Below are positions 3,329 through 14,786 of a DNA stretch of 14,786 nucleotides, in pieces; within the stretch, counting starts at the first letter, position 1; each line of letters begins with the position of its first letter. The notes under the pieces were generated by a model, which had not been told where the DNA came from, made no database searches, and saw only the letters and a program-made list of their open reading frames with translations. Source of the DNA: Elusimicrobiota bacterium (lineage in GTDB: Bacteria; Elusimicrobiota; Elusimicrobia; UBA1565; UBA9628); NCBI GenBank assembly GCA_028871595.1, contig JAGWMT010000057.1:1-14786 (forward strand). The letters run 5' to 3'. A program made the position numbers and the translations under genes.

Positions 3329-3334
3329 GCCCCG

Positions 3335-3343
3335 ATGGTATCA
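3335..3343 (-). promoter_or_regulatory. Extended -10 promoter for the 174-aa exported protein gene
   Basis: On the minus strand the string TGA-TACCAT ends six bases before the ATG at 3328. TACCAT matches the -10 consensus at four of six positions, including T1, A2 and T6, and the TG one base upstream makes it an extended -10. No good -35 is seen at 16-18 bp. A transcript starting at the normal distance would begin at or next to the start codon. Confidence 0.45.
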
Positions 3344-3371
3344 CACCCCGCGCCGCCGCAAATGAGGCAAA

Positions 3372-3399
3372 GGACCCGGCCGTCCGGGGCCGGAGGTCC
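3372..3399 (-). other. GC-rich inverted repeat between rpsT and the 174-aa gene
   Basis: GGACC-CGGCC pairs with GGCCG-(GA)-GGTCC around a six-base loop: ten base pairs with a two-base bulge. On the minus strand it is followed only by TTTGCC, so it would be a weak terminator at best. It may act as a second stop behind the better rpsT terminator, or shape the upstream region of the next gene. Confidence 0.4.
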
Positions 3400-3405
3400 C
3401 GGGGC

Positions 3406-3441
3406 AAAACGAAGCGCCCGCCCCCGGTGAGGGACGGGCGC
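3406..3441 (-). terminator. Rho-independent terminator of rpsT
   Basis: Read on the minus strand, a hairpin starts about 22 bases after the rpsT stop. The outer stem is GCGCCCG/CGGGCGC (3414-3420 with 3435-3441); after one mismatch three more G-C pairs close a six-base loop (3425-3430). It is followed directly by TTCGTTTT, a fair U-tract. The position and polarity fit rpsT as a single-gene transcript. Confidence 0.75.
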
Positions 3442-3463
3442 GCGTTGACGGGCGCGGAAAGTC

Positions 3464-3751
3464 TTACTTCGCGGCGACGAGCTTTCGGGCGGCGATCGCC
3501 AGGCGCGATTTCTTGCGCGCGGCGGCCTTCCAATGGATCGTGCCGGACTTCGCGGCCTTGTCCAGCGCGGAGGAGGCCTTCGCGGTGAACTCGGCGATCT
3601 GCTTGACGTCCTTGGCCTTCGCCGCGTCGACGACGGCGCGGACGGCGGCGCGGACGCCCCTCTTGATCCGGTGGTTGTGGAGAGCGTGCTTGATGGACTG
3701 ACGCTGGGCCTTGAGGGCCGATTTGTGACGGGTCTGCTTCTTCTTAGCCAT
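3464..3751 (-). CDS. rpsT: 30S ribosomal protein S20
   Basis: Protein of 95 residues, very basic (start MAKKKQTRHKSALKAQRQS), made of the long helices expected of S20, which binds the 5' domain of 16S rRNA in the small subunit. The family signatures are visible: the basic N-terminus, HNHRIKRGVRAAVRAVVDAA in the first half, and GTIHWKAAARKKSRLA near the end, corresponding to the conserved G-IHKN-AARKKSRL block. It is a single-gene unit with a strong promoter (3760-3789) and a terminator (3406-3441). The region just upstream of the ATG has no Shine-Dalgarno, and the -10 ends eight bases before the ATG, so the mRNA is predicted to be leaderless or nearly so. Location close to holA is also known from Bacillus, where holA (yqeN) and rpsT are neighbours on opposite strands. 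Confidence 0.96.
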   Translation of the reverse strand: MAKKKQTRHKSALKAQRQSIKHALHNHRIKRGVRAAVRAVVDAAKAKDVKQIAEFTAKASSALDKAAKSGTIHWKAAARKKSRLAIAARKLVAAK

Positions 3752-3759
3752 AGTGGGCC

Positions 3760-3789
3760 ATTATCGCTTTTCGGCGGGGCCTCCGTCAA
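3760..3789 (-). promoter_or_regulatory. Sigma-70-type promoter of rpsT, predicted leaderless
   Basis: Minus-strand -35 TTGACG (3784-3789, five of six matches), an 18-bp spacer and -10 GATAAT (3760-3765, five of six). Only eight bases (3752-3759) separate the -10 from the ATG. There is no room for a Shine-Dalgarno downstream of a normally placed start site. It lies in the 50-bp gap behind the beta-barrel gene. Confidence 0.75.
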
Positions 3790-3801
3790 TCGGGGCCAAG
3801 G

Positions 3802-4581
3802 TCAGCGCAGGCGCGCCACGACGGTGAAGCCCGGAACCCAGGAGCGGTAGACGGTCCGGTAGCCCCGGCCGGGATTGGCGGTCCGGAAGGCGGCCGAGGT
3901 GCTCCAGACCTCTTCGCGGAGGGCCACCTGCGGGCCCAAAGACAGCCACGGCTTCGCGTGCCACAGGGCGGCCAGGTACCACCATTGCTCATAGATGTTG
4001 GTCTCGCCGAAATTGAGCGGGATCCAGGTCTCGTAGCGGAGGCTGGCCGTGGCCAGAGGGGTCAGTCCGTCCATCCAGAACCAGTCCAGCTCGGGAGAGG
4101 CCAGCAAGGTGTTCTGGGAATTGGAGAAGTTGCGCTCCCAGCGCAGCTTGAGCATGCCGACCCAATGCCCCCCCAATTCCAGGCGCGGGGACGCGTCCAG
4201 GACCAGCACGCTCTCGGGCCGGCCGGTGGTGTCGCGCCACGACCAGGCGCCGGCCGTATTTTTGGTCCAGTCGTCGTCGTGGCGCGCGCCGTACTGAAGG
4301 CGGTAGAACGCGCCGATCTTCAGATGGCGCTCGACGCGCGCGTAGGTCCCGGCCATGCCCTCGCGATAAAGCCGTTGACCTTCATACTGCCAGCGTTGGG
4401 TGGTCTCGGCCAGCGGCTGGAAGATCCCGGTGCGCTCCATGAGGCGTTCGGACAGCTCGTATTCAACCGGGCGGCCGCCGGGGGATTGAGGGATGGCGGG
4501 CGCGGCCCAGGCGGACCCGGTACACGCGAGGGCCAGGGCCGCGGCCAGGCGTCCGCCGCGCTCAGTGATAATCTTGATCAA
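3802..4581 (-). CDS. Probable outer-membrane beta-barrel protein, 259 aa
   Basis: No family recognised with confidence. The protein has a signal peptide (residues 1-26, cleavage after SAWA) and then many Trp/Tyr-rich alternating segments typical of outer-membrane strands: RHLKIGAFYRLQYG, HWVGMLKLRWERNF, ELDWFWMD, LATASLRYETWIPL, YEQWWYLAALWH. The final strand ends in FTVVARLR. About eight to ten strands can be guessed, so a small barrel is likely; it resembles the loosely defined DUF2490 type of barrel but I cannot confirm this. The start codon is TTG at 4581; no ATG or GTG is available before the signal peptide. It overlaps the end of the upstream fecR-type gene by 20 bases, so the two are almost certainly co-transcribed and translationally coupled. 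The partner suggests a role at the cell envelope. Confidence 0.75.
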   Translation of the reverse strand: MIKIITERGGRLAAALALACTGSAWAAPAIPQSPGGRPVEYELSERLMERTGIFQPLAETTQRWQYEGQRLYREGMAGTYARVERHLKIGAFYRLQYGARHDDDWTKNTAGAWSWRDTTGRPESVLVLDASPRLELGGHWVGMLKLRWERNFSNSQNTLLASPELDWFWMDGLTPLATASLRYETWIPLNFGETNIYEQWWYLAALWHAKPWLSLGPQVALREEVWSTSAAFRTANPGRGYRTVYRSWVPGFTVVARLR

Positions 4582-5251
4582 GCAGATCCGCGTAGGCCCC
4601 GTCGAGATCGGTCTTGTCCTCGACCGCGCCGGCGGCCGGGTCCATGTTCCAGTTGAGGGCCTTGGTCCAGTTGTAGGCCTGGGGCTTGGTGGTGTCCAAG
4701 CCCGACTTGATCAGCACGCCCTTGCCCGCGGGGACCCGCACGCCTTTCGTCGACGCCGTGGTGGTGACCTCCACGGCGCCTTCGTTCACGCACACCCACA
4801 GGTCGCGCGCCTTGCCGTGCGCGCGGCCGTACGCCGTGAAGAACCGCGTCCCGCGGACCGCGGCCACCGCCGACGGGGTGCTGACGTGGAACTGCGCTCC
4901 CGGTGCTTGTTTGGCCACCTTCGCGAACACGCTTCCGAAGGACAAAAAAATGTCGGTCACCGGCGAGCGCGGCGCCGGGAACTTCAGCACCATCCGCCCC
5001 GATTCGCGCAGCTTGAGCCGCGACCCGTCGGCCAACTCCACCACCGCGGTGCCCTTGTCGCCGGTCGTCACCGCGTCGCCCTCGTTCAGCGGCTCGCCGG
5101 CCTCCCCCGGGTGGACGCGCCCTTGGGACTCGACGGTCACCGTCCCCCGCGCGAACGCCAGCTTGGCGCCCGGAACGGCCTTGGGCTTGGCGGAGGCCGG
5201 GGCGGAGCACAGGAGCGCCGCGGCCGCGAGAAGACGGAAAGTGCGGTTCAT
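4562..5251 (-). CDS. FecR-domain periplasmic protein, 229 aa
   Basis: The protein has a signal peptide (residues 1-21, ending ASA) and no other membrane helix, so it is predicted periplasmic. Residues 30-180 form a FecR domain: the GDAVTTGDKGTAVVELADGSRLKLRESGRMVL block at about 58-89 and the FHVSTPSAVAAVRGTRFF block at 121-138 are the two classic motifs. In the original FecR, this domain sits in an inner-membrane regulator of a sigma factor; free periplasmic FecR-domain proteins like this one have no assigned mechanism, and no sigma factor gene is nearby. A longer frame opens upstream to 5476, but the signal peptide fixes the start at ATG 5251. The remainder (180-229) is unlike FecR and ends DQDYH. 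It overlaps the downstream barrel gene by 20 bases and is divergent from uvrC. Confidence 0.88.
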   Translation of the reverse strand: MNRTFRLLAAAALLCSAPASAKPKAVPGAKLAFARGTVTVESQGRVHPGEAGEPLNEGDAVTTGDKGTAVVELADGSRLKLRESGRMVLKFPAPRSPVTDIFLSFGSVFAKVAKQAPGAQFHVSTPSAVAAVRGTRFFTAYGRAHGKARDLWVCVNEGAVEVTTTASTKGVRVPAGKGVLIKSGLDTTKPQAYNWTKALNWNMDPAAGAVEDKTDLDGAYADLLDQDYH

Positions 5252-5257
5252 CCCGGG

Positions 5258-5286
5258 AGTGTAATAGGTGAAATCCGGTCTGTCCA
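5258..5286 (-). promoter_or_regulatory. Sigma-70-type promoter of the FecR-domain gene, predicted leaderless
   Basis: Minus-strand -35 TGGACA (5281-5286, five of six matches), a 17-bp spacer and -10 TACACT (5258-5263, four of six with T1, A2 and T6 kept). The -10 ends six bases before the ATG at 5251; those bases are CCCGGG on the minus strand, with no Shine-Dalgarno. It shares the 72-bp divergent gap with the uvrC promoter. Confidence 0.6.
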
Positions 5287-5307
5287 GGTGCGCCCCAGCG
5301 CGCCCGA

Positions 5308-5317
5308 AGGCTATACT
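5308..5317 (+). promoter_or_regulatory. -10 element of uvrC with AGGC preceding it, predicted leaderless
   Basis: TATACT (5312-5317) matches the -10 consensus at five of six positions and ends six bases before the GTG at 5324. No convincing -35 is present 16-19 bp upstream. The bases AGGC directly precede the hexamer, as they do before the -10 of the gene at 14074. GAAGG upstream of the GTG is 13 bases away and would lie upstream of the transcript start, so it is not a plausible Shine-Dalgarno. Confidence 0.55.
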
Positions 5318-5323
5318 GTAACC

Positions 5324-6658
5324 GTGAGCGAACCGCCCGCCCCCGACGAGACGCCGGCCAAGCCCCTGGACCGGCGTCACCTCCCGCACAAGACCGGCGT
5401 GTACATCATGCGCGACGCGGGCGGCGAGATCCTGTACATCGGCAAGGCCCTCGACCTGGCCAAGCGGGTGGCGCAATACTTCAACCCCAACAAAGAAGAC
5501 GCCAAGAACCAGGCCCTGGCGCCGCTGATCCGCGCCATCGACTACATCCTGTGCCAGTCGGAGCGGGAAGCCCTCCTGCTGGAACGAAGGCTGATCAACG
5601 AGAACCAGCCGTTCTTCAACGTGATGTGGAAGGACGGTAAAACCTATCCGTACCTGAAGCTGTCCATGGGCGAGGACTTTCCGAGATTATTCACCACCCG
5701 CCGCAAAGTTCGTGACGGCGGATTGTATTTCGGACCGTACCCGCGCGTCGCTCCGGTGAAAGGCCTGCTTCGTTATCTCTGGAAACAGCATATGTTCCCC
5801 CTTCGACCTTGCCGCTGGGATTTCTCCGTCGCAAAACCCCTGGATCCACGCAAGATCAAGGCGTGTCTGTATTACCACACGAAAGAATGTCCCGCTCCGT
5901 GCGCGGGCCGCATTTCCAAGAACGATTACCGGTCCATCGCCGACCGCGCCGCCCTTTTCTTCAAAGGCAAGTACGGGGACCTCAAGCGCCAATTCGAAAG
6001 CGATATGAAGTCCGCGTCGGCCGCCCTGGAGTACGAGCGCGCCGCGCAATTGCGGGACAACATGCTGGCCCTCGGCCTCATGGGCGAGCGCGTGCGCGTA
6101 CGAGCGGTGGAGGCCGACGGCGTGGGCGGCCACCTGGCGGCGACCCAGTCCGTCACCGATCTGCAGAAGGCGCTGAACCTGCCCGCCCCGCCCGTCCACG
6201 TCGAGTGCTTCGACATCTCGCACTTCCAGGGCCACCAGACCGTGGCCTCCATGGTGTGCTTCATGGGCGGGCGCCCGCACCGCGACCACTACCGCAAATT
6301 CAAGATCCGCGACGTGGCGGGCATCGACGACTTCAAGTCCATGCACGAGGTCGTGTACCGCCGCTACAAGCGCCTGCAGACCGAGAAGGCGCGCCTGCCC
6401 GACCTCATCCTGATCGACGGCGGCAAAGGCCAGCTGGGCGCCGCCCAGGCCGCGCTGGCGGAACTCAAGGTCAAGGTCCCGCTGGCGTCCCTGGCCAAGC
6501 GCATCGAGGAAGTGTTCATGCCCGGCCGCGCCGAGTCCATCGTCCTGCCCATCGGCGGCCCGGCGTTGAGCCTGCTCCAGCGCCTGCGCGACGAGGCCCA
6601 TCGCTTCGGCATCACCTATCACCGCTCCCTGCGCGACAAACATCTCTTCGAGGCCTAG
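5324..6658 (+). CDS. uvrC: UvrC excinuclease subunit, shortened form (444 aa)
   Basis: UvrC makes both incisions in nucleotide excision repair. The GIY-YIG nuclease (about 23-105) is intact: TGVYIM, LYIGKA, Arg48 and the EREALLLE helix. Four cysteines (163, 181, 189, 193; RPC...ACLYYHTKECPAPC) match the four UvrC cysteines reported to hold an iron-sulfur cluster, with a longer gap between the first two than in E. coli. The UVR motif that contacts UvrB is at about 225-260 (ALEYERAAQLRD). The RNase H-like nuclease keeps its expected acidic and histidine residues: Asp297 in ECFDIS, Asp335/336 in GIDDFKSMH, Asp365 in LILIDGGKGQL and His426 in DEAHRF. Missing are roughly 110 residues between UVR and ECFDIS and the whole C-terminal helix-hairpin-helix domain; typical UvrC is about 600 residues. 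The start is GTG, chosen from the -10 six bases upstream and homology beginning at residue 17; the frame is open far upstream without meaning. Confidence 0.95.
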   Translation: MSEPPAPDETPAKPLDRRHLPHKTGVYIMRDAGGEILYIGKALDLAKRVAQYFNPNKEDAKNQALAPLIRAIDYILCQSEREALLLERRLINENQPFFNVMWKDGKTYPYLKLSMGEDFPRLFTTRRKVRDGGLYFGPYPRVAPVKGLLRYLWKQHMFPLRPCRWDFSVAKPLDPRKIKACLYYHTKECPAPCAGRISKNDYRSIADRAALFFKGKYGDLKRQFESDMKSASAALEYERAAQLRDNMLALGLMGERVRVRAVEADGVGGHLAATQSVTDLQKALNLPAPPVHVECFDISHFQGHQTVASMVCFMGGRPHRDHYRKFKIRDVAGIDDFKSMHEVVYRRYKRLQTEKARLPDLILIDGGKGQLGAAQAALAELKVKVPLASLAKRIEEVFMPGRAESIVLPIGGPALSLLQRLRDEAHRFGITYHRSLRDKHLFEA

Positions 6659-6659
6659 C

Positions 6660-7082
6660 ATGAGCGACCGCTTCCGCTGCCCCAACTGCTTCCAAGTCTT
6701 CCCGAAGGATGAGTCCACCTTGATGCTCTCCTCCGGCGCCGCCGTCTCCGGCGAGGGCGTTCAATGGAGCGGCGACCTGGAAAAGGACCTCCCCCGGATC
6801 AAGCGCGTCGTCTACTGCGGAAGCTGCCGCGGCGCCGTCGACTATCACGCGCTCCTGCGCGGCCGCCTGGACGCCCGCGGCTTGGACCTGTGGGGCCAGT
6901 GGGCGTTTCCCGTCGTCGCCCTGGCGCTCAGCTTCGGAGCCGGCTGGGCCTGGTGGACGTCGGCTTTGGGCGGCGTGGCGGCCGCCGTCGCCGCCTGCGT
7001 GGCGCTGTCGCGCGTGGAGCGCTACCGGGTCCAGCGCTGGCGCCTCAAGGATGAGGGAACAAAACCCGTCCCTCATTCGTAA
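6660..7082 (+). CDS. Small zinc-ribbon membrane protein, 140 aa
   Basis: Family not recognised. The N-terminal 60 residues carry two cysteine pairs, CPNC at 7-10 and CGSC at 53-56, which would form a zinc ribbon. The 42 residues between them (DESTLMLSSG... DLPRIKRVVY) are more than in a simple rubredoxin knuckle. Two hydrophobic segments follow, about 79-99 (WGQWAFPVVALALSFGAGWAW) and 102-117, so the protein is probably anchored in the inner membrane by a hairpin with both ends in the cytoplasm. The last 20 residues are basic. The ATG is one base after the uvrC stop, with GAGG six bases upstream, so it is translated from the uvrC transcript. A function in repair cannot be inferred from this alone. 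Domains of this kind often appear in small proteins of unclear role. Confidence 0.78.
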   Translation: MSDRFRCPNCFQVFPKDESTLMLSSGAAVSGEGVQWSGDLEKDLPRIKRVVYCGSCRGAVDYHALLRGRLDARGLDLWGQWAFPVVALALSFGAGWAWWTSALGGVAAAVAACVALSRVERYRVQRWRLKDEGTKPVPHS

Positions 7083-7089
7083 GGATAGG

Positions 7090-7449
7090 GTGGAAACGCT
7101 CGTCGAATTCTCCGACCCCCTCCGCGCGGCCCCGGTCTACGGAGAAAAGGCTCCCGCCGAGTTCGCCTCGTGGCCGGCGCATGAATGCCTGCGCCGTCTT
7201 CGGCTGAGTTTCGGCTTGAACCGGAAGCAGCTCGCGGCCAAGGCCGGCGTTTCGGCGTCGTTGGTCGGGCGCGCCGAGAAAGGTGCGGATATCCGTCTGA
7301 GCACCTTACGCCGGCTCTATGCGGCGCTGGACTGCCGCCTGGTCGCCCTGCCCGTGGGCGGGCTCTACGAATTGGACCGGCGACAGGCGCAGCTTGACGA
7401 CGAATGGATCACTTGGAAGCGGGCGAACGCGCGCTACTTTAAGTCCTGA
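7090..7449 (+). CDS. XRE-family helix-turn-helix protein, 119 aa
   Basis: DNA-binding protein with one Cro/C1-type HTH at about residues 31-88: ECLRRLRLSFGLNRKQLAAKAGVS, then ASLVGRAEKGADIRLSTLRRLYAALDCRLVALPV. This is the usual five-helix form, and the ending (STLRRLYAALDCRL) resembles HipB- and antitoxin-like members. The C-terminal 30 residues (ELDRRQAQLDDEWITWKR) are charged and helical, and no toxin partner lies beside it. I prefer the GTG at 7090, which has AAGGA four bases upstream; an ATG at 7051 in the same frame would give 132 residues but overlaps the previous gene by 32 bases, has no Shine-Dalgarno and adds codons unlike the rest. Probably the last gene of the uvrC operon. Its target is unknown; autoregulation is possible. 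Confidence 0.8.
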   Translation: METLVEFSDPLRAAPVYGEKAPAEFASWPAHECLRRLRLSFGLNRKQLAAKAGVSASLVGRAEKGADIRLSTLRRLYAALDCRLVALPVGGLYELDRRQAQLDDEWITWKRANARYFKS

Positions 7450-7488
7450 TTGCGTTTCCGCTCATTCCGCTCGCTCCAGAGCAAGTCG

Positions 7489-7519
7489 CGGGGCCCCGGG
7501 CGATCGCCGCGGGGCCCCG
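7489..7519. terminator. Strong GC hairpin between two convergent genes, possible two-way terminator
   Basis: CGGGGCCCC (7489-7497) pairs with GGGGCCCCG (7511-7519), nine base pairs. The loop itself contains the palindrome GGCGATCGCC (7499-7508). It lies in the 89-base gap between the stop of the XRE gene (plus) and the stop of pilC (minus). There is no good U-tract on either side, so termination would be Rho-dependent or need help; the placement is what argues for a terminator. Confidence 0.5.
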
Positions 7520-7538
7520 ACGTCCTCTCCGGTCGAAT

Positions 7539-8771
7539 TTATCCCTGTTTTCCGGCCAGTTCGCCCAGGCCGAACATCGGCATGAACATGGCGACGACGA
7601 TGGTGCCGATGATGATGCCCATGACGACGATGACGATAGGCTCGATCAAGGAGGTCAGGCCCTTCACCGCCGTGTCCACTTCCTGGTCGTAGAAATCGGC
7701 GATCTTGGAGAGCATGATGTCCAGCGCGCCGGTTTCCTCGCCGACGGAGATCATCGAGGTCACCATGTTCGGGAAGATGCCCGACTTCTTGAGCGGGTCG
7801 GACAGATGGCCGCCCTCGCGGATGGACTCGCGCGTGAGCAGGACGGCGTCGGCGATGACCACGTTGCCGGCGGTCTGCGCCACCGTCTCCAGCGCCTGCA
7901 TGATGGGCACGCCGGACTTGATCAAGGTGCCCAAGGTGCGCGTGAAGCGCGCGACGGCGACCTTCTTCAGGATGATGCCGAAAATCGGCGCCTTCAACGT
8001 GTAGGCGTCCACGATCTTCTGACCCTTGGGCGTCTTGTAAAACACCTGGAAGCCTTTGTACGCCGCGAAGGGGAACGAAACGATCAGGTACCAAAACTGC
8101 TTCATCGTGTCGGAGATGTTAATCAGGATCTGCGTCGGCAGCGGCAGCTCCGCGCCGAAGCTGGAGAAGATGTTCTTGAAGGTCGGAATCACGAAAATCA
8201 TCAGGAAGACGGTGACGCAGGCGCAGATGGACAGAACGATGGCCGGGTACATCATCGCCGACTTCACCTTCGCCTTCAACTGCTCGGAGCTCTCCATGTA
8301 GACCGTCAGGCGCTCCAGGATGGTGTCCAGGATGCCGCCCAGCTCGCCGGCCTTGACCATCGAGGTGTACAGGTCGGGGAAGGCGTCGGGATGCTTCTTC
8401 AGCGCGTCGGAGATGGAAAGGCCGGACTCGATGTCGGATTTCACCGCGCCCAGCACTTCTTTGAAGGCGGGATTCTCGGCCTGGGTCTCCAAAATCCCCA
8501 GGCTTTGCACGATGGGGACGCCCGCGCTGACCAAGGTCGAGAGCTGGCGGGAGAACAGGACCAGGTCCTTCGAGGTCACGTGGCCCTTCTGGGTCTTCGC
8601 GATGAGGGCCTTGATCTTGTCGACGAAGCCTTCGGTCTTTTCCTTGATCTCCAGCACCACGTACTTCTGGCCGCGGAGCTTTTCCACCGCGCTCTTCTGC
8701 TCGTCGGCGTCGATGACGCCCGCCATCACCAGACCGGCCGACGTTTTCGCCTTGTAGCTGAAAGCGGGCAT
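7539..8771 (-). CDS. pilC: Type IV pilus inner-membrane platform protein PilC
   Basis: Protein of 410 residues, normal length for the PilC/GspF family. It sits in the inner membrane and couples the cytoplasmic motors to the growing pilus. The N-terminus AFSYKAKTSAG-VMAGVIDADE is the family start. Two homologous T2SSF domains follow, at about 70-198 and 275-398: FSRQLSTLVSAGVPIVQSLGILE in the first is matched by FTRTLGTLIKSGVPIMQALETVA in the second. Membrane helices are seen at about 177-198, 222-240 and 375-398. GELGGILD and GEETGALD are the paired short motifs of the two halves. The ATG is nine bases downstream of the pilT stop, and a good GGAGAG overlaps that stop, so it is translated from the pilBTC transcript. 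The end of the operon is the hairpin at 7489-7519. General secretion GspF is the alternative, but the pilT neighbour favours the pilus. Confidence 0.94.
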   Translation of the reverse strand: MPAFSYKAKTSAGLVMAGVIDADEQKSAVEKLRGQKYVVLEIKEKTEGFVDKIKALIAKTQKGHVTSKDLVLFSRQLSTLVSAGVPIVQSLGILETQAENPAFKEVLGAVKSDIESGLSISDALKKHPDAFPDLYTSMVKAGELGGILDTILERLTVYMESSEQLKAKVKSAMMYPAIVLSICACVTVFLMIFVIPTFKNIFSSFGAELPLPTQILINISDTMKQFWYLIVSFPFAAYKGFQVFYKTPKGQKIVDAYTLKAPIFGIILKKVAVARFTRTLGTLIKSGVPIMQALETVAQTAGNVVIADAVLLTRESIREGGHLSDPLKKSGIFPNMVTSMISVGEETGALDIMLSKIADFYDQEVDTAVKGLTSLIEPIVIVVMGIIIGTIVVAMFMPMFGLGELAGKQG

Positions 8772-8780
8772 AATCTCTCC

Positions 8781-9866
8781 TTAGTGCGGGGCCTGCTGGG
8801 CCGGCATCTGCCGCTGCATCAGCCGGCGCAGGTCCTCCGGATCCAGCGAGTGCGCCATCGCTTCCTGGAAGGTGATCTTCTGCTTGAAATAGAGGTCGGC
8901 GAGGCCCTGATTCATGGTCTGCATGCCGGCCTTCGCGCCCGTCTGGATGGCGACCTGGATCTGTTCGACCTTCTGCTCGCGGATCAGGTTCCGGATGGCC
9001 GAGTTGACCACCAAGGTCTCGACCGCGAGCACGCGCCCGGCGCCGGACGAGTGGACCAGCAGCTGCTGGCAGAGCACCGCCTGGAGCACGAACGAGAGCT
9101 GAACCCGGACCTGGTCCAGCTGATGGTTCGGGAACACGTCGATGATGCGGTTGATGGTCTGCGCGCAGTCCGTCGTGTGCAGAGTCGCCAGGACCAAGTG
9201 GCCGGTCTCGGCGATATTGAGCGCCGCCTGGATCGTCTCCAGGTCGCGCAGCTCCCCGATCAGGATCACGTTCGGGTCCTGGCGCAGGACGTGGCGCAGC
9301 GCCGCGCCGAAAGTCTCCGTGTCCTGCCCCACCTCGCGCTGGTTGACGATGGACTTCTTATGCGTGTGCACGAACTCGATCGGGTCCTCGACGGTCATGA
9401 TGTGCGCGGCCCGGGTCTCGTTGACGAAATCGATCATGCTGGCGATGGTGGTGGATTTCCCGGAGCCCGTCGGCCCCGTCACCAGCACCAAGCCCTTGGG
9501 AAGCTTCATGATGTCCAGGATGGAGCGCGGCAGGCCGATCTCGTCGAAGGTCTTGAACGAATTCGGAATGGCGCGCACCGCGGCCCCCACGTAGCCGGTC
9601 TGGCGGTAGACGTTCATGCGCACGCGTCCGATCCCGCGCAGATTGAAGGCCAGGTCCAGCTCGCTGGCGGCCTCGAAGCGCTGCCGCTGCTGGTCGTTGA
9701 GCAAAGAGTAGATCAACGCCTGGGAGGTCTCGGAATCCAATTTTTCAAAGGGCGTCGGCACCAGGGATCCGTCGATGCGCAGGATCGGCGGCGCGCCGAC
9801 CGTGAGGTGAAGGTCGGAGGCGCCGCGCTCGTGCATGAGCAGGAACAGTTCTCCCATCGATACCAT
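8781..9866 (-). CDS. pilT: Type IV pilus retraction ATPase PilT
   Basis: Protein of 361 residues. PilT is the hexameric ATPase that depolymerises pili and powers twitching. The N-terminal PAS-like part begins with ASDLHLTVGAPPILRIDG. Walker A is GPTGSGKST (131-139), the Asp box VEDPIEFVH (159-167), Walker B VILIGELRD (200-208) and the His box TLHTTDCAQTINRIIDVFP (228-246). The AIRNLIRE motif that is specific to PilT and needed for retraction is at 290-297, which separates it from PilB and PilU-like relatives. It lies 22 bases after pilB with AGGAG seven bases before the ATG; a second in-frame ATG three codons later is less well placed. Pili here can therefore probably be retracted. The pilin, prepilin peptidase and secretin genes are not in this window. 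Confidence 0.96.
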   Translation of the reverse strand: MVSMGELFLLMHERGASDLHLTVGAPPILRIDGSLVPTPFEKLDSETSQALIYSLLNDQQRQRFEAASELDLAFNLRGIGRVRMNVYRQTGYVGAAVRAIPNSFKTFDEIGLPRSILDIMKLPKGLVLVTGPTGSGKSTTIASMIDFVNETRAAHIMTVEDPIEFVHTHKKSIVNQREVGQDTETFGAALRHVLRQDPNVILIGELRDLETIQAALNIAETGHLVLATLHTTDCAQTINRIIDVFPNHQLDQVRVQLSFVLQAVLCQQLLVHSSGAGRVLAVETLVVNSAIRNLIREQKVEQIQVAIQTGAKAGMQTMNQGLADLYFKQKITFQEAMAHSLDPEDLRRLMQRQMPAQQAPH

Positions 9867-9888
9867 GTCTTCTCTCCTCGAAATCCGG

Positions 9889-11667
9889 TCAGACGTCGCC
9901 GTCCGCCTGCGTCACGCGCATCATTTCCTCGACGGTCGTCGCCCCGGAGAGGATCTTGCGGATGGCGCACATCCGCAAGGTCAGCATGCCCTGCTTCATG
10001 GACTGGGTCTTGATCATCTTGGCCGACGCCCGGTCCAGGACCAGTTGGCGGATCGCGTCGGTCATCTCCATGACCTCGTAAAGCCCTTGGCGGCCGCGGT
10101 AGCCCGTGGTGGCGCAGTTCTCGCAGCCCTTGCCTTTGTACAGGACGACCTTGCCGCCGTCGGTGACCTGGAGCTGCGCCTCCGGCACGCCCAGTTTGAG
10201 CAGCCAGTCCTTCTCCACCTCGTACGGCTCCTTGCACTTCGGGCAGATGCCGCGCACGAGGCGCTGGGCCTCGACCATCAGCATGGCCGCGCTGATCAGA
10301 AAGGGCTCCACGCCCATCATGCCCAGGCGGGTGATCGTTTGGGACGTGTCGTTGGTATGCAGGGTGGAGAAGACCAGATGGCCGGTCAGCGCCGCGTTGA
10401 TGGCGATGGTCGCGGTTTCCTGGTCGCGGATCTCGCCGACCATGATCACGTCGGGGTCCTGGCGCAGGAACGAGCGCAGGGCCGCGGCGAAAGTCAGGCC
10501 GACCTGGTTATGAATCTGGACTTGATTGATGCCCTTGAGCTGGTACTCGACGGGGTCCTCGGCGGTGATGATGTTCGTGTCCGGCGTGTTCAAATTGGCC
10601 AGCGCGGAGTAGAGCGTCGTCGACTTCCCGGAACCCGTCGGCCCCGTGACGAGGTTCACGCCGTACGGCGCTTCCATGGCCTTCTTGAACACGGCCATGG
10701 CCTCCGGCTCGAAGCCCAACTGGGTCATGTTGACCTTCAGACCCGATGAGTCCAGGATGCGCATGACGATCTTCTCGCCGGGAGCGCAGGGCAGGACCGA
10801 CACGCGCATGTCGATCTCCTTGCCCTCGATCTTGAGCTTCAGGCGCCCGTCCTGCGGAATGCGCTTCTCCGCGATGTTCAGGTTCGACATGATCTTGATG
10901 CGCGCGCAGATCGCGTTGTGGAATTTCTTCGGGGGACTGGGCTGCTCATGGAGAACGCCGTCGATCCGGTACCGGATGCGGAGCTCCTTCTGGTAGGGCT
11001 CGATGTGGATGTCGGAGGCCCGGGACTTCACCGCGCCGGCCATGATCAGGTTCACCATCTTGATCACGGGCGCTTCCTCGGCGTCCCGCTCCAGCGCGGC
11101 CTCGCTCTCCTGCGCGGACTTCTCCTCGACGTGCTCGATCTCGTCGGCCGCCGCCTCGTCCACCGCCGACTGCTTGACGATGTCCTCGAGCGCCTCCTGG
11201 GACGTGGCCTGCTTGTAGTACTTCTCGTGCGCGGCGGAAATCTCGCTTTCGGAGGCCAGGCAGCCGATCACGTCGCAGCCGGTGAGCATCTTGAGATCGT
11301 CGAGGACCATCACGTCCAGGGGGTCGGCGATGGCGACGGTCAGGCGGTCCTTCGTCTTATTGAACGGCATCAGCATCTTCTGGCGCGCGATGGCCTCGGG
11401 CACGGCGGCGACGGCGTCTTCGGAGATGTCGCCGATATCGGCCAGGGAAACGAAGGAAATTCCCGTTTTTTCCGCCAGAAATTGAAGAAGCTTGTCCTCG
11501 GCCAGGAAGCCCTTGTCGATCAGCAAGGTGCCCAGCTTGTCCCCTCCGCTTTTCTGGGCGTCGAGAGCCTCCTTCAATTGTTCCGAGGAAATCAGCGTTT
11601 CCTCGACCAGAAGGTCGGCCAGGCGCCGGGAAAGCCCCAGCGAAATGGAATGCTGCGCGTTCGCCAT
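9889..11667 (-). CDS. pilB: Type IV pilus extension ATPase PilB
   Basis: Protein of 592 residues of the GspE/PilB family, the ATPase that assembles pili. Two N-terminal segments (about 10-65 and 66-155) form the MshEN/T2SSE-N region. An acidic linker (160-200, many Glu) follows, then the catalytic core: ASDIHIEPY (217-225), Walker A GPTGSGKST (342-350), the Asp box AEDPVEY (369-375), Walker B DVIMVGEIRD (406-415) and the His box TLHTNDTSQTITRL (435-448). A zinc site of CPKC (475-478) and CENC (515-518) is typical for PilB and GspE. The gene starts at ATG with no Shine-Dalgarno and its own TTGACA promoter just upstream. It is followed by pilT and pilC. Type II secretion GspE is the main alternative, made less likely by pilT. 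Confidence 0.95.
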   Translation of the reverse strand: MANAQHSISLGLSRRLADLLVEETLISSEQLKEALDAQKSGGDKLGTLLIDKGFLAEDKLLQFLAEKTGISFVSLADIGDISEDAVAAVPEAIARQKMLMPFNKTKDRLTVAIADPLDVMVLDDLKMLTGCDVIGCLASESEISAAHEKYYKQATSQEALEDIVKQSAVDEAAADEIEHVEEKSAQESEAALERDAEEAPVIKMVNLIMAGAVKSRASDIHIEPYQKELRIRYRIDGVLHEQPSPPKKFHNAICARIKIMSNLNIAEKRIPQDGRLKLKIEGKEIDMRVSVLPCAPGEKIVMRILDSSGLKVNMTQLGFEPEAMAVFKKAMEAPYGVNLVTGPTGSGKSTTLYSALANLNTPDTNIITAEDPVEYQLKGINQVQIHNQVGLTFAAALRSFLRQDPDVIMVGEIRDQETATIAINAALTGHLVFSTLHTNDTSQTITRLGMMGVEPFLISAAMLMVEAQRLVRGICPKCKEPYEVEKDWLLKLGVPEAQLQVTDGGKVVLYKGKGCENCATTGYRGRQGLYEVMEMTDAIRQLVLDRASAKMIKTQSMKQGMLTLRMCAIRKILSGATTVEEMMRVTQADGDV

Positions 11668-11675
11668 GCTAGGTA

Positions 11676-11704
11676 AGGTTAGGGTCCGCGCCGGACTTTG
11701 TCAA
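11676..11704 (-). promoter_or_regulatory. Promoter of pilBTC, predicted leaderless
   Basis: Minus-strand -35 TTGACA (11699-11704, perfect), a 17-bp spacer and -10 TAACCT (11676-11681; T1, A2 and T6 match). Eight bases separate it from the pilB ATG and contain no Shine-Dalgarno. Upstream is an AT-rich patch (11714-11738) that could act as an UP element; it also contains AGGCTATCTT (11714-11723), an alternative -10 that would give a leader of about 40 bases. The GYF-domain gene ends just upstream, so read-through could add to transcription. Confidence 0.62.
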
Positions 11705-11747
11705 GGCCGACGCAAGATAGCCTATATTAATAAGAAGTGAACGTCCG

Positions 11748-14012
11748 TCAGAGCCCGGAATTGACGGTGTCGGACCGGAAGGCCCCGTCGTCCTCCGCCG
11801 GGGGACGCAGCTCGCCCTCGCTCGGCAGGGGCAGGAGCGGCACCTCCTTCGGGGTCTCGGGCTCGACGCGGCGTTTGGCGGCGCGCTTGACGGCCTTGGC
11901 GCGGGCGGGCTTCTTCTTGGCCTTGGCCTTGGCTTTCGCTTTCGGCTTCTCCTCGGAGGCGGGTGGACCGCCGGCCAGCATGCGCTTGCCGTCCAGGTTC
12001 TTGCCGATGACGAAGCCTCGGTCCATATCGGCCTCGAAGAGATAGTGCACCTCGGTCCCGCCCGGAGCCGACGGCGTGAAGCGATACTCCACCAGGTAGG
12101 TTTTATCCGACGTCTCGCTGGCGCTCCACGACTCCTTGCCGGCGCCCGGGCTGGCGGAGTAGGAATACTGCAGCCAGGACGCCACGGTGCCGCGCCCGCC
12201 GTCCAGCGGAAAATCCTTGACCATCGCCACGGCCGCGTCCAGCTTGGATTCCGGCGCCGCCTGCGGGGTTTCATTGGGCGCGGGAGCGGGCGCGGCGGCC
12301 GGCAACTGGCGCGGCTTGACCATCGGCGGAGCCGGTGTTTCCTCGACGGGAGCGTAACCCACGCCCGAACGGCCGTCGTCGAGCGCGGCCATCTGCTTCA
12401 GGTCCTTCGGGTGGCGCAGCGACAGGAAGCCGATGACGCCCATCACCACGACCAGGACCGCGCCGGCGACGGCGAATATCTTATTGTTGCGCGGCGGGCG
12501 CTTGGGCGCCGGAGCGGTCTCCGGAGCCGGCTTGGCCAGGCGCGCCATGACCTCCTGGGTGGATGGAGCGGACATCTGCGAGGCGGTGTTCGGCGGCGCG
12601 TCGCCTCCACCCGCTCCGGAGAAGCTGGGCATCGGCTGGGGCTCGGGCGAGAAGGACGGCGGCGCGCCGAAGCTCAAGGTGGCGGGCGGCGCGGGCATGG
12701 GCGTGGCCGGCGCCGATGACGGCTCGAACGGGGAAACGGAAGCGGCCGGCAGGGCGAACGCCGGATCCGTCGAGGGCGCGGTCAGGGGCTGCGGCTTGCT
12801 CGGCGCCGGGGCCAAGTTCACGGGCGCGGCCGCGGGCGCGCCCCAGTCGAAGGGAGCGGGGGACGGGGCGCCGGGAGGCGCTTCGGCCGCCGGAGGAGCC
12901 GCGACGGCCGGCGGCGCGGCGATCTTCAATTCGACGGGAGCCGGAACGGCGGCCGGCGGAGGAGGAACGACCGCTTCCGGAACCGGCGCGGCGGCCGGAG
13001 TCTCGACGGAGCCGGCCGCCGGCGCGTCCTCGGGCCCGACGACGCGGAACGCCTTGATCGTCGGCGCGACCTTGAACTGCTTGCGCTCGAACGTCGACTT
13101 CTTCGGCGCGGGCTCGGGAGTGGCGGGCTCGGGAGCGGCGGGCTCCGGAAGGCTCAGTTCCAGCGCGGCGCCGGCGAAGGACGGCCGCTCCGGTGGCTCG
13201 GGAGCCGGAGGAACGGGGGCGTCCGGCGCCGGAACCTCGGGGGCGGGAGGGGCGGGAGGGGCGGGAGGCGCGGCCGGGAAAGCGGGGACTCCGTCCACGG
13301 GAGCGAAGCTGGGAAACGCGCCGCCGGGCGCGACGCTGGACCAATCCACGGCGGACGCCTCCGCGGGGGCCGGGATCGGAGCGGGCGCGGCAGCCGGAGG
13401 CGCGGAGGCCTGCGGCGCGACCGGCGGCGGCGGGGGATGAGCGATCGCCGCGATGATGTCCTTGGCGAGAGCATCCCGGTCCAATTCGGCCGCCTGCGGC
13501 GGGTGGCCGCGCAGTTGCAGCTCCTTTTCGACCAGGCGATGGACCAGGTTCGTGTGGCCGGCTTCCAACTCGGTCACGCGCTGGTAGAGCATCTCCAGCT
13601 GCAGGCTGAGCTCCGACACCTGCTCCTTGGCCTTGCGGAGCTCGGTTTCGTTGGCGGGCGGGCGCGGGGTCAGAAGATCGCCGAAAGTCTTCTTCATGTC
13701 CGCGTCCTGGAACAGGTCCTCGGCCGCCCCCGGGAACTCGTCGTCGCCGATCAAGCCCGCGGCGTCGATCTGCAGCTTGTCGAGCAGTCCGTACGTCGAG
13801 CCGAATTCATCGCCCGCCCAGGAAGGTCCCAAGGCCGAGGCCAGCCCGGAGAATTCCGCGACGTCCCCGGCCGGGCGCCATTCGCCCTCCCCGGCCCCCG
13901 CGGTGTCTCCCGCGCTGACCAAGGTGGACGCGTCCAAGCCCGGAAGCCCCGCGACCGCGTCCTTGTCGAACGGGCCGAGGATCCGGGAGTCTTTGTAGAC
14001 CCAATACTTCAC
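11748..14012 (-). CDS. GYF-domain, coiled-coil, proline-rich trans-membrane protein, 754 aa
   Basis: No family recognised for the whole protein. Residues 1-54 look like a bacterial GYF_2 domain: YWVYKDSRILGPF near the start and LVSAGD...EWRPAGDV at its end. A short acidic stretch follows, then a coiled coil (about 121-167, ELRKAKEQVSELSLQLEML). Residues 193-508 are a long Pro/Ala-rich linker, interrupted by a basic island at about 305-325. One membrane helix is at 512-532, preceded by KRPPRNNK, so by the positive-inside rule the N-terminus is cytoplasmic and the C-terminus periplasmic. After a short Pro-rich link, a folded domain at about 588-680 (LQYSYSASPG, TYLVEYRFTP, EVHYLFEADM) is followed by a Lys/Ala/Arg tail at 690-715. 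The start is GTG. Directly upstream of pilB on the same strand, it may link a cytoplasmic partner with the pilus machine. Only the layout, not sequence, recalls the Myxococcus motility protein GltJ. Confidence 0.82.
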   Translation of the reverse strand: MKYWVYKDSRILGPFDKDAVAGLPGLDASTLVSAGDTAGAGEGEWRPAGDVAEFSGLASALGPSWAGDEFGSTYGLLDKLQIDAAGLIGDDEFPGAAEDLFQDADMKKTFGDLLTPRPPANETELRKAKEQVSELSLQLEMLYQRVTELEAGHTNLVHRLVEKELQLRGHPPQAAELDRDALAKDIIAAIAHPPPPPVAPQASAPPAAAPAPIPAPAEASAVDWSSVAPGGAFPSFAPVDGVPAFPAAPPAPPAPPAPEVPAPDAPVPPAPEPPERPSFAGAALELSLPEPAAPEPATPEPAPKKSTFERKQFKVAPTIKAFRVVGPEDAPAAGSVETPAAAPVPEAVVPPPPAAVPAPVELKIAAPPAVAAPPAAEAPPGAPSPAPFDWGAPAAAPVNLAPAPSKPQPLTAPSTDPAFALPAASVSPFEPSSAPATPMPAPPATLSFGAPPSFSPEPQPMPSFSGAGGGDAPPNTASQMSAPSTQEVMARLAKPAPETAPAPKRPPRNNKIFAVAGAVLVVVMGVIGFLSLRHPKDLKQMAALDDGRSGVGYAPVEETPAPPMVKPRQLPAAAPAPAPNETPQAAPESKLDAAVAMVKDFPLDGGRGTVASWLQYSYSASPGAGKESWSASETSDKTYLVEYRFTPSAPGGTEVHYLFEADMDRGFVIGKNLDGKRMLAGGPPASEEKPKAKAKAKAKKKPARAKAVKRAAKRRVEPETPKEVPLLPLPSEGELRPPAEDDGAFRSDTVNSGL
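13241..13267. repeat. Three exact 9-bp tandem repeats in the proline-rich linker
   Basis: The 9-mer GGGCGGGAG occurs three times in a row on the plus strand and encodes a Pro-Pro-Ala repeat on the minus strand. Together with the preceding G-run at 13239 it makes at least four runs of three or more G separated by one base, a G-quadruplex-type sequence on the template strand of the gene. A looser 15-bp repeat encoding PEPA(T/A) lies nearby at about 13107-13149. Confidence 0.8.
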
Positions 14013-14019
14013 TGCCGCC

Positions 14020-14048
14020 AGGATACCCCCGCGCTGTTACGTTTTCAA
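14020..14048 (-). promoter_or_regulatory. Promoter of the GYF-domain gene, predicted leaderless
   Basis: Minus-strand -35 TTGAAA (14043-14048, five of six matches), a 17-bp spacer and -10 TATCCT (14020-14025, four of six). Seven bases (14013-14019) separate it from the GTG start, without a Shine-Dalgarno. It lies back to back with the promoter of the gene at 14074 within a 61-bp gap. Confidence 0.62.
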
Positions 14049-14057
14049 GGCGGAAAT

Positions 14058-14067
14058 AGGCTAAATT
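14058..14067 (+). promoter_or_regulatory. Possible -10 element of the MBL-fold gene
   Basis: TAAATT (14062-14067) matches the -10 consensus at four of six positions and ends six bases before the GTG at 14074. It is preceded by AGGC (14058-14061), as at the uvrC promoter. No clear -35 is seen. The overlapping TAGGCT at 14057-14062 is an alternative that would leave a leader of a few bases. Confidence 0.42.
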
Positions 14068-14073
14068 AAAGGC

Positions 14074-14786
14074 GTGCTGATCCGCCCCTTCTATCTGTCC
14101 TGCCTGGCCCACGCGTCTTATCTGTTGGCCGACGAGCGCACGAAGACGGCCGTGGTCGTCGATCCGCAGCGCGACGTGGACGCTTACTTGGAGGAAGCCC
14201 GGACGCTGGGCGTCGACATCCGCCACGTCATGCTGACGCATTTCCACGCCGATTTCGTGGCGGGCCATCTGGAACTGCGCGACCGGCGCGGCGCGAACAT
14301 CTACCTGGGCGCGAAGGCCGAAGCCGACTACGCCTTCACCCCCCTCGCCGACGGCATGCGCCTGGAGTGGGGCTCGCTGGGCATCGGCGTGCTGGAAACG
14401 CCGGGACACACGCCCGAGGGCGTGACGCTTCTGGTCTACGACTTAGACGCCGACCGGGAGAATCCCAAGGCCGCCTTGACCGGCGACACCCTCTTCATCG
14501 GCGACGTCGGGCGCCCCGACCTGATGGCGTCCGCCGGGTTCAACGCCGCCCAATTGGGCGGAATGCTCTACCAGTCCCTGACGACGAAACTGATGACCCT
14601 TCCCGATTCGACCCTCGTCTATCCCGCTCACGGCGCGGGGTCCATGTGCGGCAAGGCGCTCTCGAGCGAACGGGTCTCCACCATCGGCGAGCAAAAGAAA
14701 TACAACTACGCCTTGAAGGCTCGCGACCGGGAGGAGTTCCTGCGCCTGGTGACCGCGGATCAAACCGAGGCGCCCGCCTACTTCGC
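14074..14786 (+). CDS. MBL-fold persulfide dioxygenase-type protein, N-terminal part (3' end outside window)
   Basis: The first 237 residues of a metallo-beta-lactamase-fold hydrolase. Metal ligands are visible: the THFHAD motif (His56, His58, Asp60), His112 in TPGHT, Asp138 in GDTLFIGDVGRPDL and His186 in YPAHGAGSMCGK. The THFHADFVAGHLEL form, the GDVGRPDL block and the HGAGS-CGK...STIGEQK block are typical of the group that includes ETHE1-like persulfide dioxygenases fused to rhodanese domains, which oxidise glutathione or other persulfides to sulfite. The coding frame is still open at the window end, so rhodanese domains may follow but cannot be seen. In the first motif the residue after Asp60 is Phe rather than His, a form I recall as common in this subgroup. 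The GTG start is supported by the family-like N-terminus (IRPFYLSCLAHASYLL) and a -10 six bases upstream. Confidence 0.88.
   Translation, partial: MLIRPFYLSCLAHASYLLADERTKTAVVVDPQRDVDAYLEEARTLGVDIRHVMLTHFHADFVAGHLELRDRRGANIYLGAKAEADYAFTPLADGMRLEWGSLGIGVLETPGHTPEGVTLLVYDLDADRENPKAALTGDTLFIGDVGRPDLMASAGFNAAQLGGMLYQSLTTKLMTLPDSTLVYPAHGAGSMCGKALSSERVSTIGEQKKYNYALKARDREEFLRLVTADQTEAPAYF

Follow-up and report, generated by a model that had tools for sequence, protein, structure and literature searches.

Leaderless genes are already known in bacteria. In the available part of a 2011 survey (Zheng et al., PMC3160421), they are given for 207 of 953 bacterial genomes, with averages of 39% in Deinococcus-Thermus, 27% in Aquificae, 19% in Actinobacteria and 13% in Acidobacteria. 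The leaderless class of GeneMarkS-2 holds 21.6% of the bacterial species in a representative set, with up to 40% of transcripts (PMC9581028, in the portion drawn on here). The excerpts used of PMC3160421 and PMC12340547 describe TANNNT as the experimentally established -10 element of leaderless genes in Deinococcus radiodurans, and those of PMC3898074 describe mapped starts in Mycobacterium tuberculosis with C at -1, a purine at +1 and T at +2. Full-text literature searches returned no report of leaderless genes in Elusimicrobiota or Endomicrobi, and a literature search, judged by the titles of the four papers it listed, gave no Elusimicrobi transcription-start map. The word Elusimicrobi is absent from the main text of the 2011 survey (PMC3160421) and from that of PMC9581028, and the original GeneMarkS-2 publication may already class an Elusimicrobium genome. 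In the portions available, PMC10783764 names Elusimicrobiota in an anti-Shine-Dalgarno (anti-SD) table and PMC7448276 has an M. tuberculosis chaperone as its subject. The arrangement described below is a strong and real sequence feature of this known kind, and the searches gave no earlier description of it from this lineage.

The window, which is the whole 14,786-nucleotide stretch of DNA that was analysed, has a GC content of 66% and comes from an uncultured member of the Elusimicrobiota. Sixteen loci match its PilB at 76-92% identity; 15 of these belong to Elusimicrobia/Elusimicrobiota, the complete chromosome CP096137.1 included. Pfam matches agree with the identities of rpsT, FecR, UvrC and the MBL-fold protein, and place T2SSE and MshEN in PilB, T2SSE in PilT and T2SSF in PilC. 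The reading frame is the basis for the names and starts of the 174-aa and GYF-type genes, neither of which had a Pfam match; the latter is also backed by relatives. The window's uvrC (5324-6658, plus strand) encodes a protein of 444 aa with GIY-YIG, UVR and UvrC RNase H domains and no helix-hairpin-helix match in Pfam. The UvrC of E. coli is longer, at about 610 aa.

A sequence-only reading of the window had placed a -10-like hexamer 6, 8, 6, 6, 8, 7 and 6 bases before the start codons of its seven unit-heading genes, six of them fitting TAnnnT and one being GATAAT, and all seven were found exactly so. On the minus strand they are TACCAT of the 174-aa gene (3335-3340; start codon 3326-3328; spacer 6), which has an extended -10 TGA in front, GATAAT of rpsT (3760-3765; start codon 3749-3751; spacer 8), whose position is conserved in 14 relatives, TACACT of fecR (5258-5263; start codon 5249-5251; spacer 6), TAACCT of pilB (11676-11681; start codon 11665-11667; spacer 8) and TATCCT of the GYF-type gene (14020-14025; GTG start 14010-14012; spacer 7). 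On the plus strand, TATACT (5312-5317) precedes the GTG start of uvrC at 5324 and TAAATT (14062-14067) that of the MBL-fold gene at 14074, each with a spacer of 6. The four -35 elements named in the same reading are likewise present, all on the minus strand: TTGACG 18 bp from the -10 of rpsT (3784-3789), and TGGACA, TTGACA and TTGAAA 17 bp from those of fecR (5281-5286), pilB (11699-11704) and the GYF-type gene (14043-14048). The reported lack of a Shine-Dalgarno (SD) sequence also held, as none of the seven genes has GGAG, GAGG or AGGA in the last 20 bases upstream. SD-like sites do precede the operon-internal genes, as had been claimed, and provide the contrast: GAGGAGAG before pilT (9872-9879, minus strand), AAGGAGAG before pilC (8775-8782, minus strand) and GAGG before the zinc-ribbon gene.

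Two pairs of these genes are divergent, fecR/uvrC (5252-5323) and GYF/MBL (14013-14073), with two start-codon-abutting promoters within 72 and 61 bases, respectively; in the GYF/MBL pair the -35 regions would overlap. In one pilT locus (L008), the region about 15-60 bases before the gene holds a long inverted repeat (tcagacctcccgttgttgcg ... cgcaacaacgggaggtctga) that is absent from the other pilT loci compared.

The sequence-only reading had predicted a genome-wide TAnnnT peak at -12 to -14. This was examined in 1.6 Mb (42%) of the complete relative CP096137.1, whose PilB is 86% identical to that of the window. A purpose-built coding-composition model, which used start-codon frequencies and no upstream motif, called 1,474 genes; a gene counted as a unit head if its neighbour was divergent or lay at least 80 bases off on the same strand, and as internal if the gap was less than 30 bases. 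TAnnnT stood at spacer 6 in 101 of 682 unit-heading genes and at spacer 7 in 38 of 682. The background further upstream was 0.51%, or about 3.5 genes per position, and the binomial tail for the spacer-6 count is about 1e-110. Internal genes had the hexamer at these spacers in 17 and 13 of 672 cases, so that over this 42% of the genome the predicted peak is present and concentrated in unit heads. SD words occurred in 37% of internal vs 15% of divergent genes, the frequency in the latter being that of the background (0.149 vs 0.152). By the same procedure no TAnnnT peak was obtained in E. coli K-12 (200 kb) or in a C. necator megaplasmid (100 kb). Two intended positive controls, 200 kb of D. deserti plasmid 3 and 50 kb of Thermus pTT27, failed as such, with little or no peak; plasmids carry few and unusual genes, and the two are counted as uninformative, not as support.

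These data bear directly on whether AT-rich hexamers were simply picked by eye near starts, with a free choice of alignment. The window offers only seven genes for such a pattern, and GATAAT falls outside TAnnnT. However, among 20,000 dinucleotide shuffles of the upstream regions scored at spacers 6-8, none had TAnnnT in more than 3 of the 7 genes, and among 3,000 scored in any 3-base offset window none had it in more than 4, compared with the 6 observed. The earlier judgement that chance was unlikely is borne out, and with the tail in the relative chance is already refuted; we regard its probability as practically nil. The features that mark TANNNT-type leaderless genes, a genome-wide peak, restriction to first genes and no SD, occur together in the window and the relative. 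C immediately precedes the start codon in 108 of 141 spacer-6 genes vs 565 of 1,219 others (p = 5e-12; motif-free starts), as would be expected if transcription began on the A or G of that codon. In its -10 TANNNT, its tolerance of GTG starts and its C at -1, the arrangement resembles that of M. tuberculosis as set out in the available part of PMC3898074.

Comparison of orthologues shows how closely the hexamer follows the start codon. In rpsT, a -10-like hexamer lies 7-9 bases from the ATG in the window and 14 relatives, and TTGACG lies 18 bp upstream of it in 12 of the 14; in one relative (L013) the distance is 20 bp and in another (L016) the element is absent. In pilB, TTGACA and TAACCT or TAATCT are kept in 15 of 16 relatives with spacers of 8-10, and L013 has TACTCT at 12 (read by eye), from which the pilB leader may be a few bases long. 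For uvrC, the comparison used the 9 of 17 loci that matched a GIY-YIG motif search, the other 8 being dropped because the pattern was unmatched. The start codon of these lies 9-20 codons before the GIY-YIG motif, and TAnnnT is at spacer 6 in eight loci and at 7 in one. The uvrC box moves with the start codon, by up to 11 codons, and this would be hard to explain unless the distance matters. The arrangement has changed at some loci: the MBL orthologue of L013 has lost it, has an SD-like site and looks leadered, and the fecR orthologue of L010 has TGGAAT as its hexamer.

The same alignments address the possibility that the -10 boxes are real and the true start codons lie further downstream, in which case the leaders would be ordinary and the starts mis-assigned. 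Several starts are indeed uncertain, and alternative in-frame starts exist. Against this, when the window start is projected onto the relatives, a start codon stands at the corresponding aligned position in 14 of 14 for rpsT and 14 of 16 for pilB, the uvrC boxes track the start codon, and the spacer peak is only 1-2 bases wide with start calls made free of any motif. We consider such mis-assignment very improbable. That rpsT and uvrC have promoters abutting their coding sequences is well supported by the orthologue comparison.

A signal model, in which start choice and two signal matrices were fitted jointly, was used to describe the elements in CP096137.1, genes being called leaderless-type at a posterior >0.5. 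The fitted -10 matrix is TATAAT-like (T.90 A.93 T.46 A.61 A.60 T.98; 8.2 bits), with a spacer of 6 in 52% and of 7 in 24%; started from the same seed, the fits for E. coli and the D. deserti and C. necator plasmids fall to 3-4 bits. Among 300 confident leaderless-type genes, TGn stands directly before the hexamer in 89 and G at the middle position in 191, a TTGACA-like -35 (at least 4 of 6 matches) occurs at 16-18 bp in 67 compared with 20 at control spacings, and the start codons are ATG in 242, GTG in 51 and TTG in 7. A -10 TANNNT about 12 bases before the start codon is shared with Deinococcus-Thermus, as given in the excerpts available of PMC3160421 and PMC12340547. In the portion used of PMC3898074, M. 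tuberculosis has no conserved -35, a point of resemblance to the weak one seen here, but TGN is found in 7% of its TANNNT promoters, compared with the 89 of 300 genes with TGn in the relative. Judged by sequence alone, the box has the properties of a sigma-70-type promoter -10 element, with TGn, a -35 at 17 bp and the conserved -35/-10 spacing of rpsT.

The same anatomy argues against TAnnnT being an AT-rich translation enhancer, or unstructured patch, in a longer leader with no promoter function. Low structure near starts has been suggested to aid SD-less translation (PMC5397173, in the part available), but a patch of this kind would not account for the fixed register, for a final T of 98% in the matrix, or for the TGn, the -35 at 17 bp and the concentration in unit heads; nor would it explain why TTGACG is kept at 18 bp in the rpsT relatives and TTGACA in those of pilB. 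This explanation is exceedingly improbable.

The reading we prefer is that sigma-70-type promoters, often with an extended -10 (TGn), abut the coding sequence, so that RNA polymerase would start on, or a few bases from, the A or G of the start codon and the mRNA would be leaderless or nearly so. Recruitment of such mRNAs would depend on the start codon at their 5' end and on initiator tRNA, not on an SD, and downstream genes of the same operon would more often use an ordinary SD, the anti-SD of the ribosome being intact. The transcription start is placed by the known distance between a -10 and its start point, and the translation route by analogy with leaderless systems that have been studied. 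The leaderless reading first made from the window is supported by position, composition, operon restriction and conservation of promoter elements, with 5' ends placed from sequence only. We hold it to be very probable that abutting promoters of this type give leaderless or near-leaderless mRNAs at unit heads, with downstream genes more often SD-led.

The abutting promoters could also be active alongside distal promoters of many of the same genes, the leaderless share being minor or conditional in vivo. There is precedent in the 47 M. tuberculosis genes with an additional transcription start site (PMC3898074, in the available part), and additional TAnnnT sites occur 30-51 bases in front of pilB and the GYF and MBL genes. 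However, no SD word precedes the seven genes, so a leadered mRNA would miss the usual site, and the distal GYF and MBL sites fall within their shared divergent region; those of pilB lie outside it and remain candidates. Mixed use on this scale seems unlikely, and abutting promoters acting as the main source of leaderless mRNAs are preferred.

How general the arrangement is depends on the class of gene. The model classed 356 of 1,469 genes in CP096137.1 as leaderless-type. Among divergent genes the count is 197 of 342, among genes with a 25-80-base gap 62 of 131 and among internal genes 45 of 656; these fractions are rough, since several called starts are visibly wrong, and lean high, since the three control sets also gave a spurious leaderless class (13-40% of first genes, with degenerate motifs). 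The original suggestion that leaderless mRNAs are the default is a fair, though model-based, description of divergent heads, with 147 leaderless-type among the 206 of the 342 that were confident (both proteins at least 100 aa, gap <400), but not of every head, given 52 of 340 same-strand heads at least 80 bases from their neighbour. In other members of the phylum, sampled at 200 kb each, the model gave a clear result in a genome of the same clade (G002; 20 of 38 divergent genes leaderless-type, 6.5 bits) and 3-4 bits in four more (G118, G042, G015 and G053), which reflects weaker leaderless use or less power.

The further proposal, that leaderless initiation is the default for housekeeping genes, was not borne out. 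Seventy-six E. coli query proteins were compared with the 42% of CP096137.1; 30 were classed, 45 had no match that reached the threshold and one had a match but no called gene. By the model, only one of eight core unit heads is leaderless-type (def, CAAAAT), infC, infB, tuf, groES, accB and secA being SD-type and accC neither, and the called starts of infC, infB, accB, accC and secA look wrong. Six core genes with gaps of 25-80 bases comprise one leaderless-type (rpsO), three SD and two neither, and 16 internal core genes comprise one, 13 and two, respectively. When all in-frame starts of 14 core genes were re-checked, TAnnnT abutted a start only in rpsO (TAACAT, spacer 9), SD words were found for groES, rplA, rplK and, at a doubtful start, infB, and the other nine had neither signal; tuf was among these, yet has AAGGAG at its model-called start. 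Core genes may prefer SD leaders, and the sample, though small, counts against the wider housekeeping claim. According to the available part of PMC3898074, none of the ribosomal protein genes of M. tuberculosis is leaderless, whereas here rpsT and rpsO are leaderless-type.

Searches made with no gene caller extend the observation across the phylum. In eight genomes of the clade, TGNTANNAT-N6/7-ATG had 520 matches vs 79 for the same pattern at N16/17; the corresponding counts were 61 vs 62 in five Acidobacteriota and 0 and 0 in three plasmid records. One of the Acidobacteriota (G129, the genome of L020) had the extended -10 and ATG at 6-7 bases 9 times vs 2 for the decoy, small numbers that are nevertheless unlike the other four pooled. 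In 119 genomes of the phylum, TTGACA-N17/18-TANNNT-N6/7-ATG had 764 matches vs 313 for the N16/17 decoy. The pattern was more frequent than its decoy in 89 genomes, equal in 12 and less frequent in 18, and 24 of the 119 singly reach an uncorrected p<0.05. A genome of 38% GC (G110), which is outside the range of the gene caller and model, had 20 vs 2.

The rpsT gene shows that the mode of initiation differs within the phylum. It is leaderless-type in 20 of 70 Elusimicrobiota genomes, SD-led in 46, and has both signals in two and neither in two, a ratio of 20:46 that is no census because the 70, drawn from 115 genomes with a match, were partly the 30 best-scoring and partly 40 chosen by hand (L178-L207 and L210-L249). 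In many of the SD-led genes, GGAGG or a similar word stands between the start codon and TAnnnT sites located 20-44 bases upstream. Since both states occur within the phylum, rpsT has changed its state at least once, in one direction or the other. In E. coli, rpsT is autoregulated in translation. A switch in the initiation mode of rpsT may alter its control.

The ribosome of the clade appears equipped for both modes. Of eight clade genomes, two have a full-length 16S match, two a partial one and four none, and both full-length genes (G001 and G003) carry an intact anti-SD, GGATCACCTCCTTTC. Loss of the 16S anti-SD, considered as a basis for SD-less translation, is therefore rejected for these genomes. 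Of 119 genomes of the phylum, 112 have a bS21 gene; no bS21 match was found in the Thermus composti, Deinobacterium chartae and Corynebacterium glutamicum controls, in all three of which S20 was found. The common TGn and the retention of bS21 distinguish the present system from Deinococcus-Thermus, as represented by the Thermus and Deinobacterium control genomes without a bS21 match. The idea that leaderless use tracks loss of bS21 or of the anti-SD was not borne out, both being retained here, and their retention indicates that SD and leaderless modes coexist. We incline slightly to the view that leaderless initiation is the main mode for unit heads in this clade, including some ribosomal protein genes, with the anti-SD and bS21 kept, and that core genes such as rpsT have switched mode within the phylum.

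The rule allows promoter positions to be predicted at many unit heads in a phylum that is largely uncultured, and start calls in Elusimicrobiota genomes may be misplaced by gene finders that look for an SD. Retention of the anti-SD and bS21 bears on what leaderless translation requires of the ribosome, and the rpsT mosaic opens the switch in initiation mode to comparative testing. If the view of the clade given above is true, this phylum would be added to those with leaderless mRNA as a main route of initiation, and would form a natural series for how and why the initiation mode flips.
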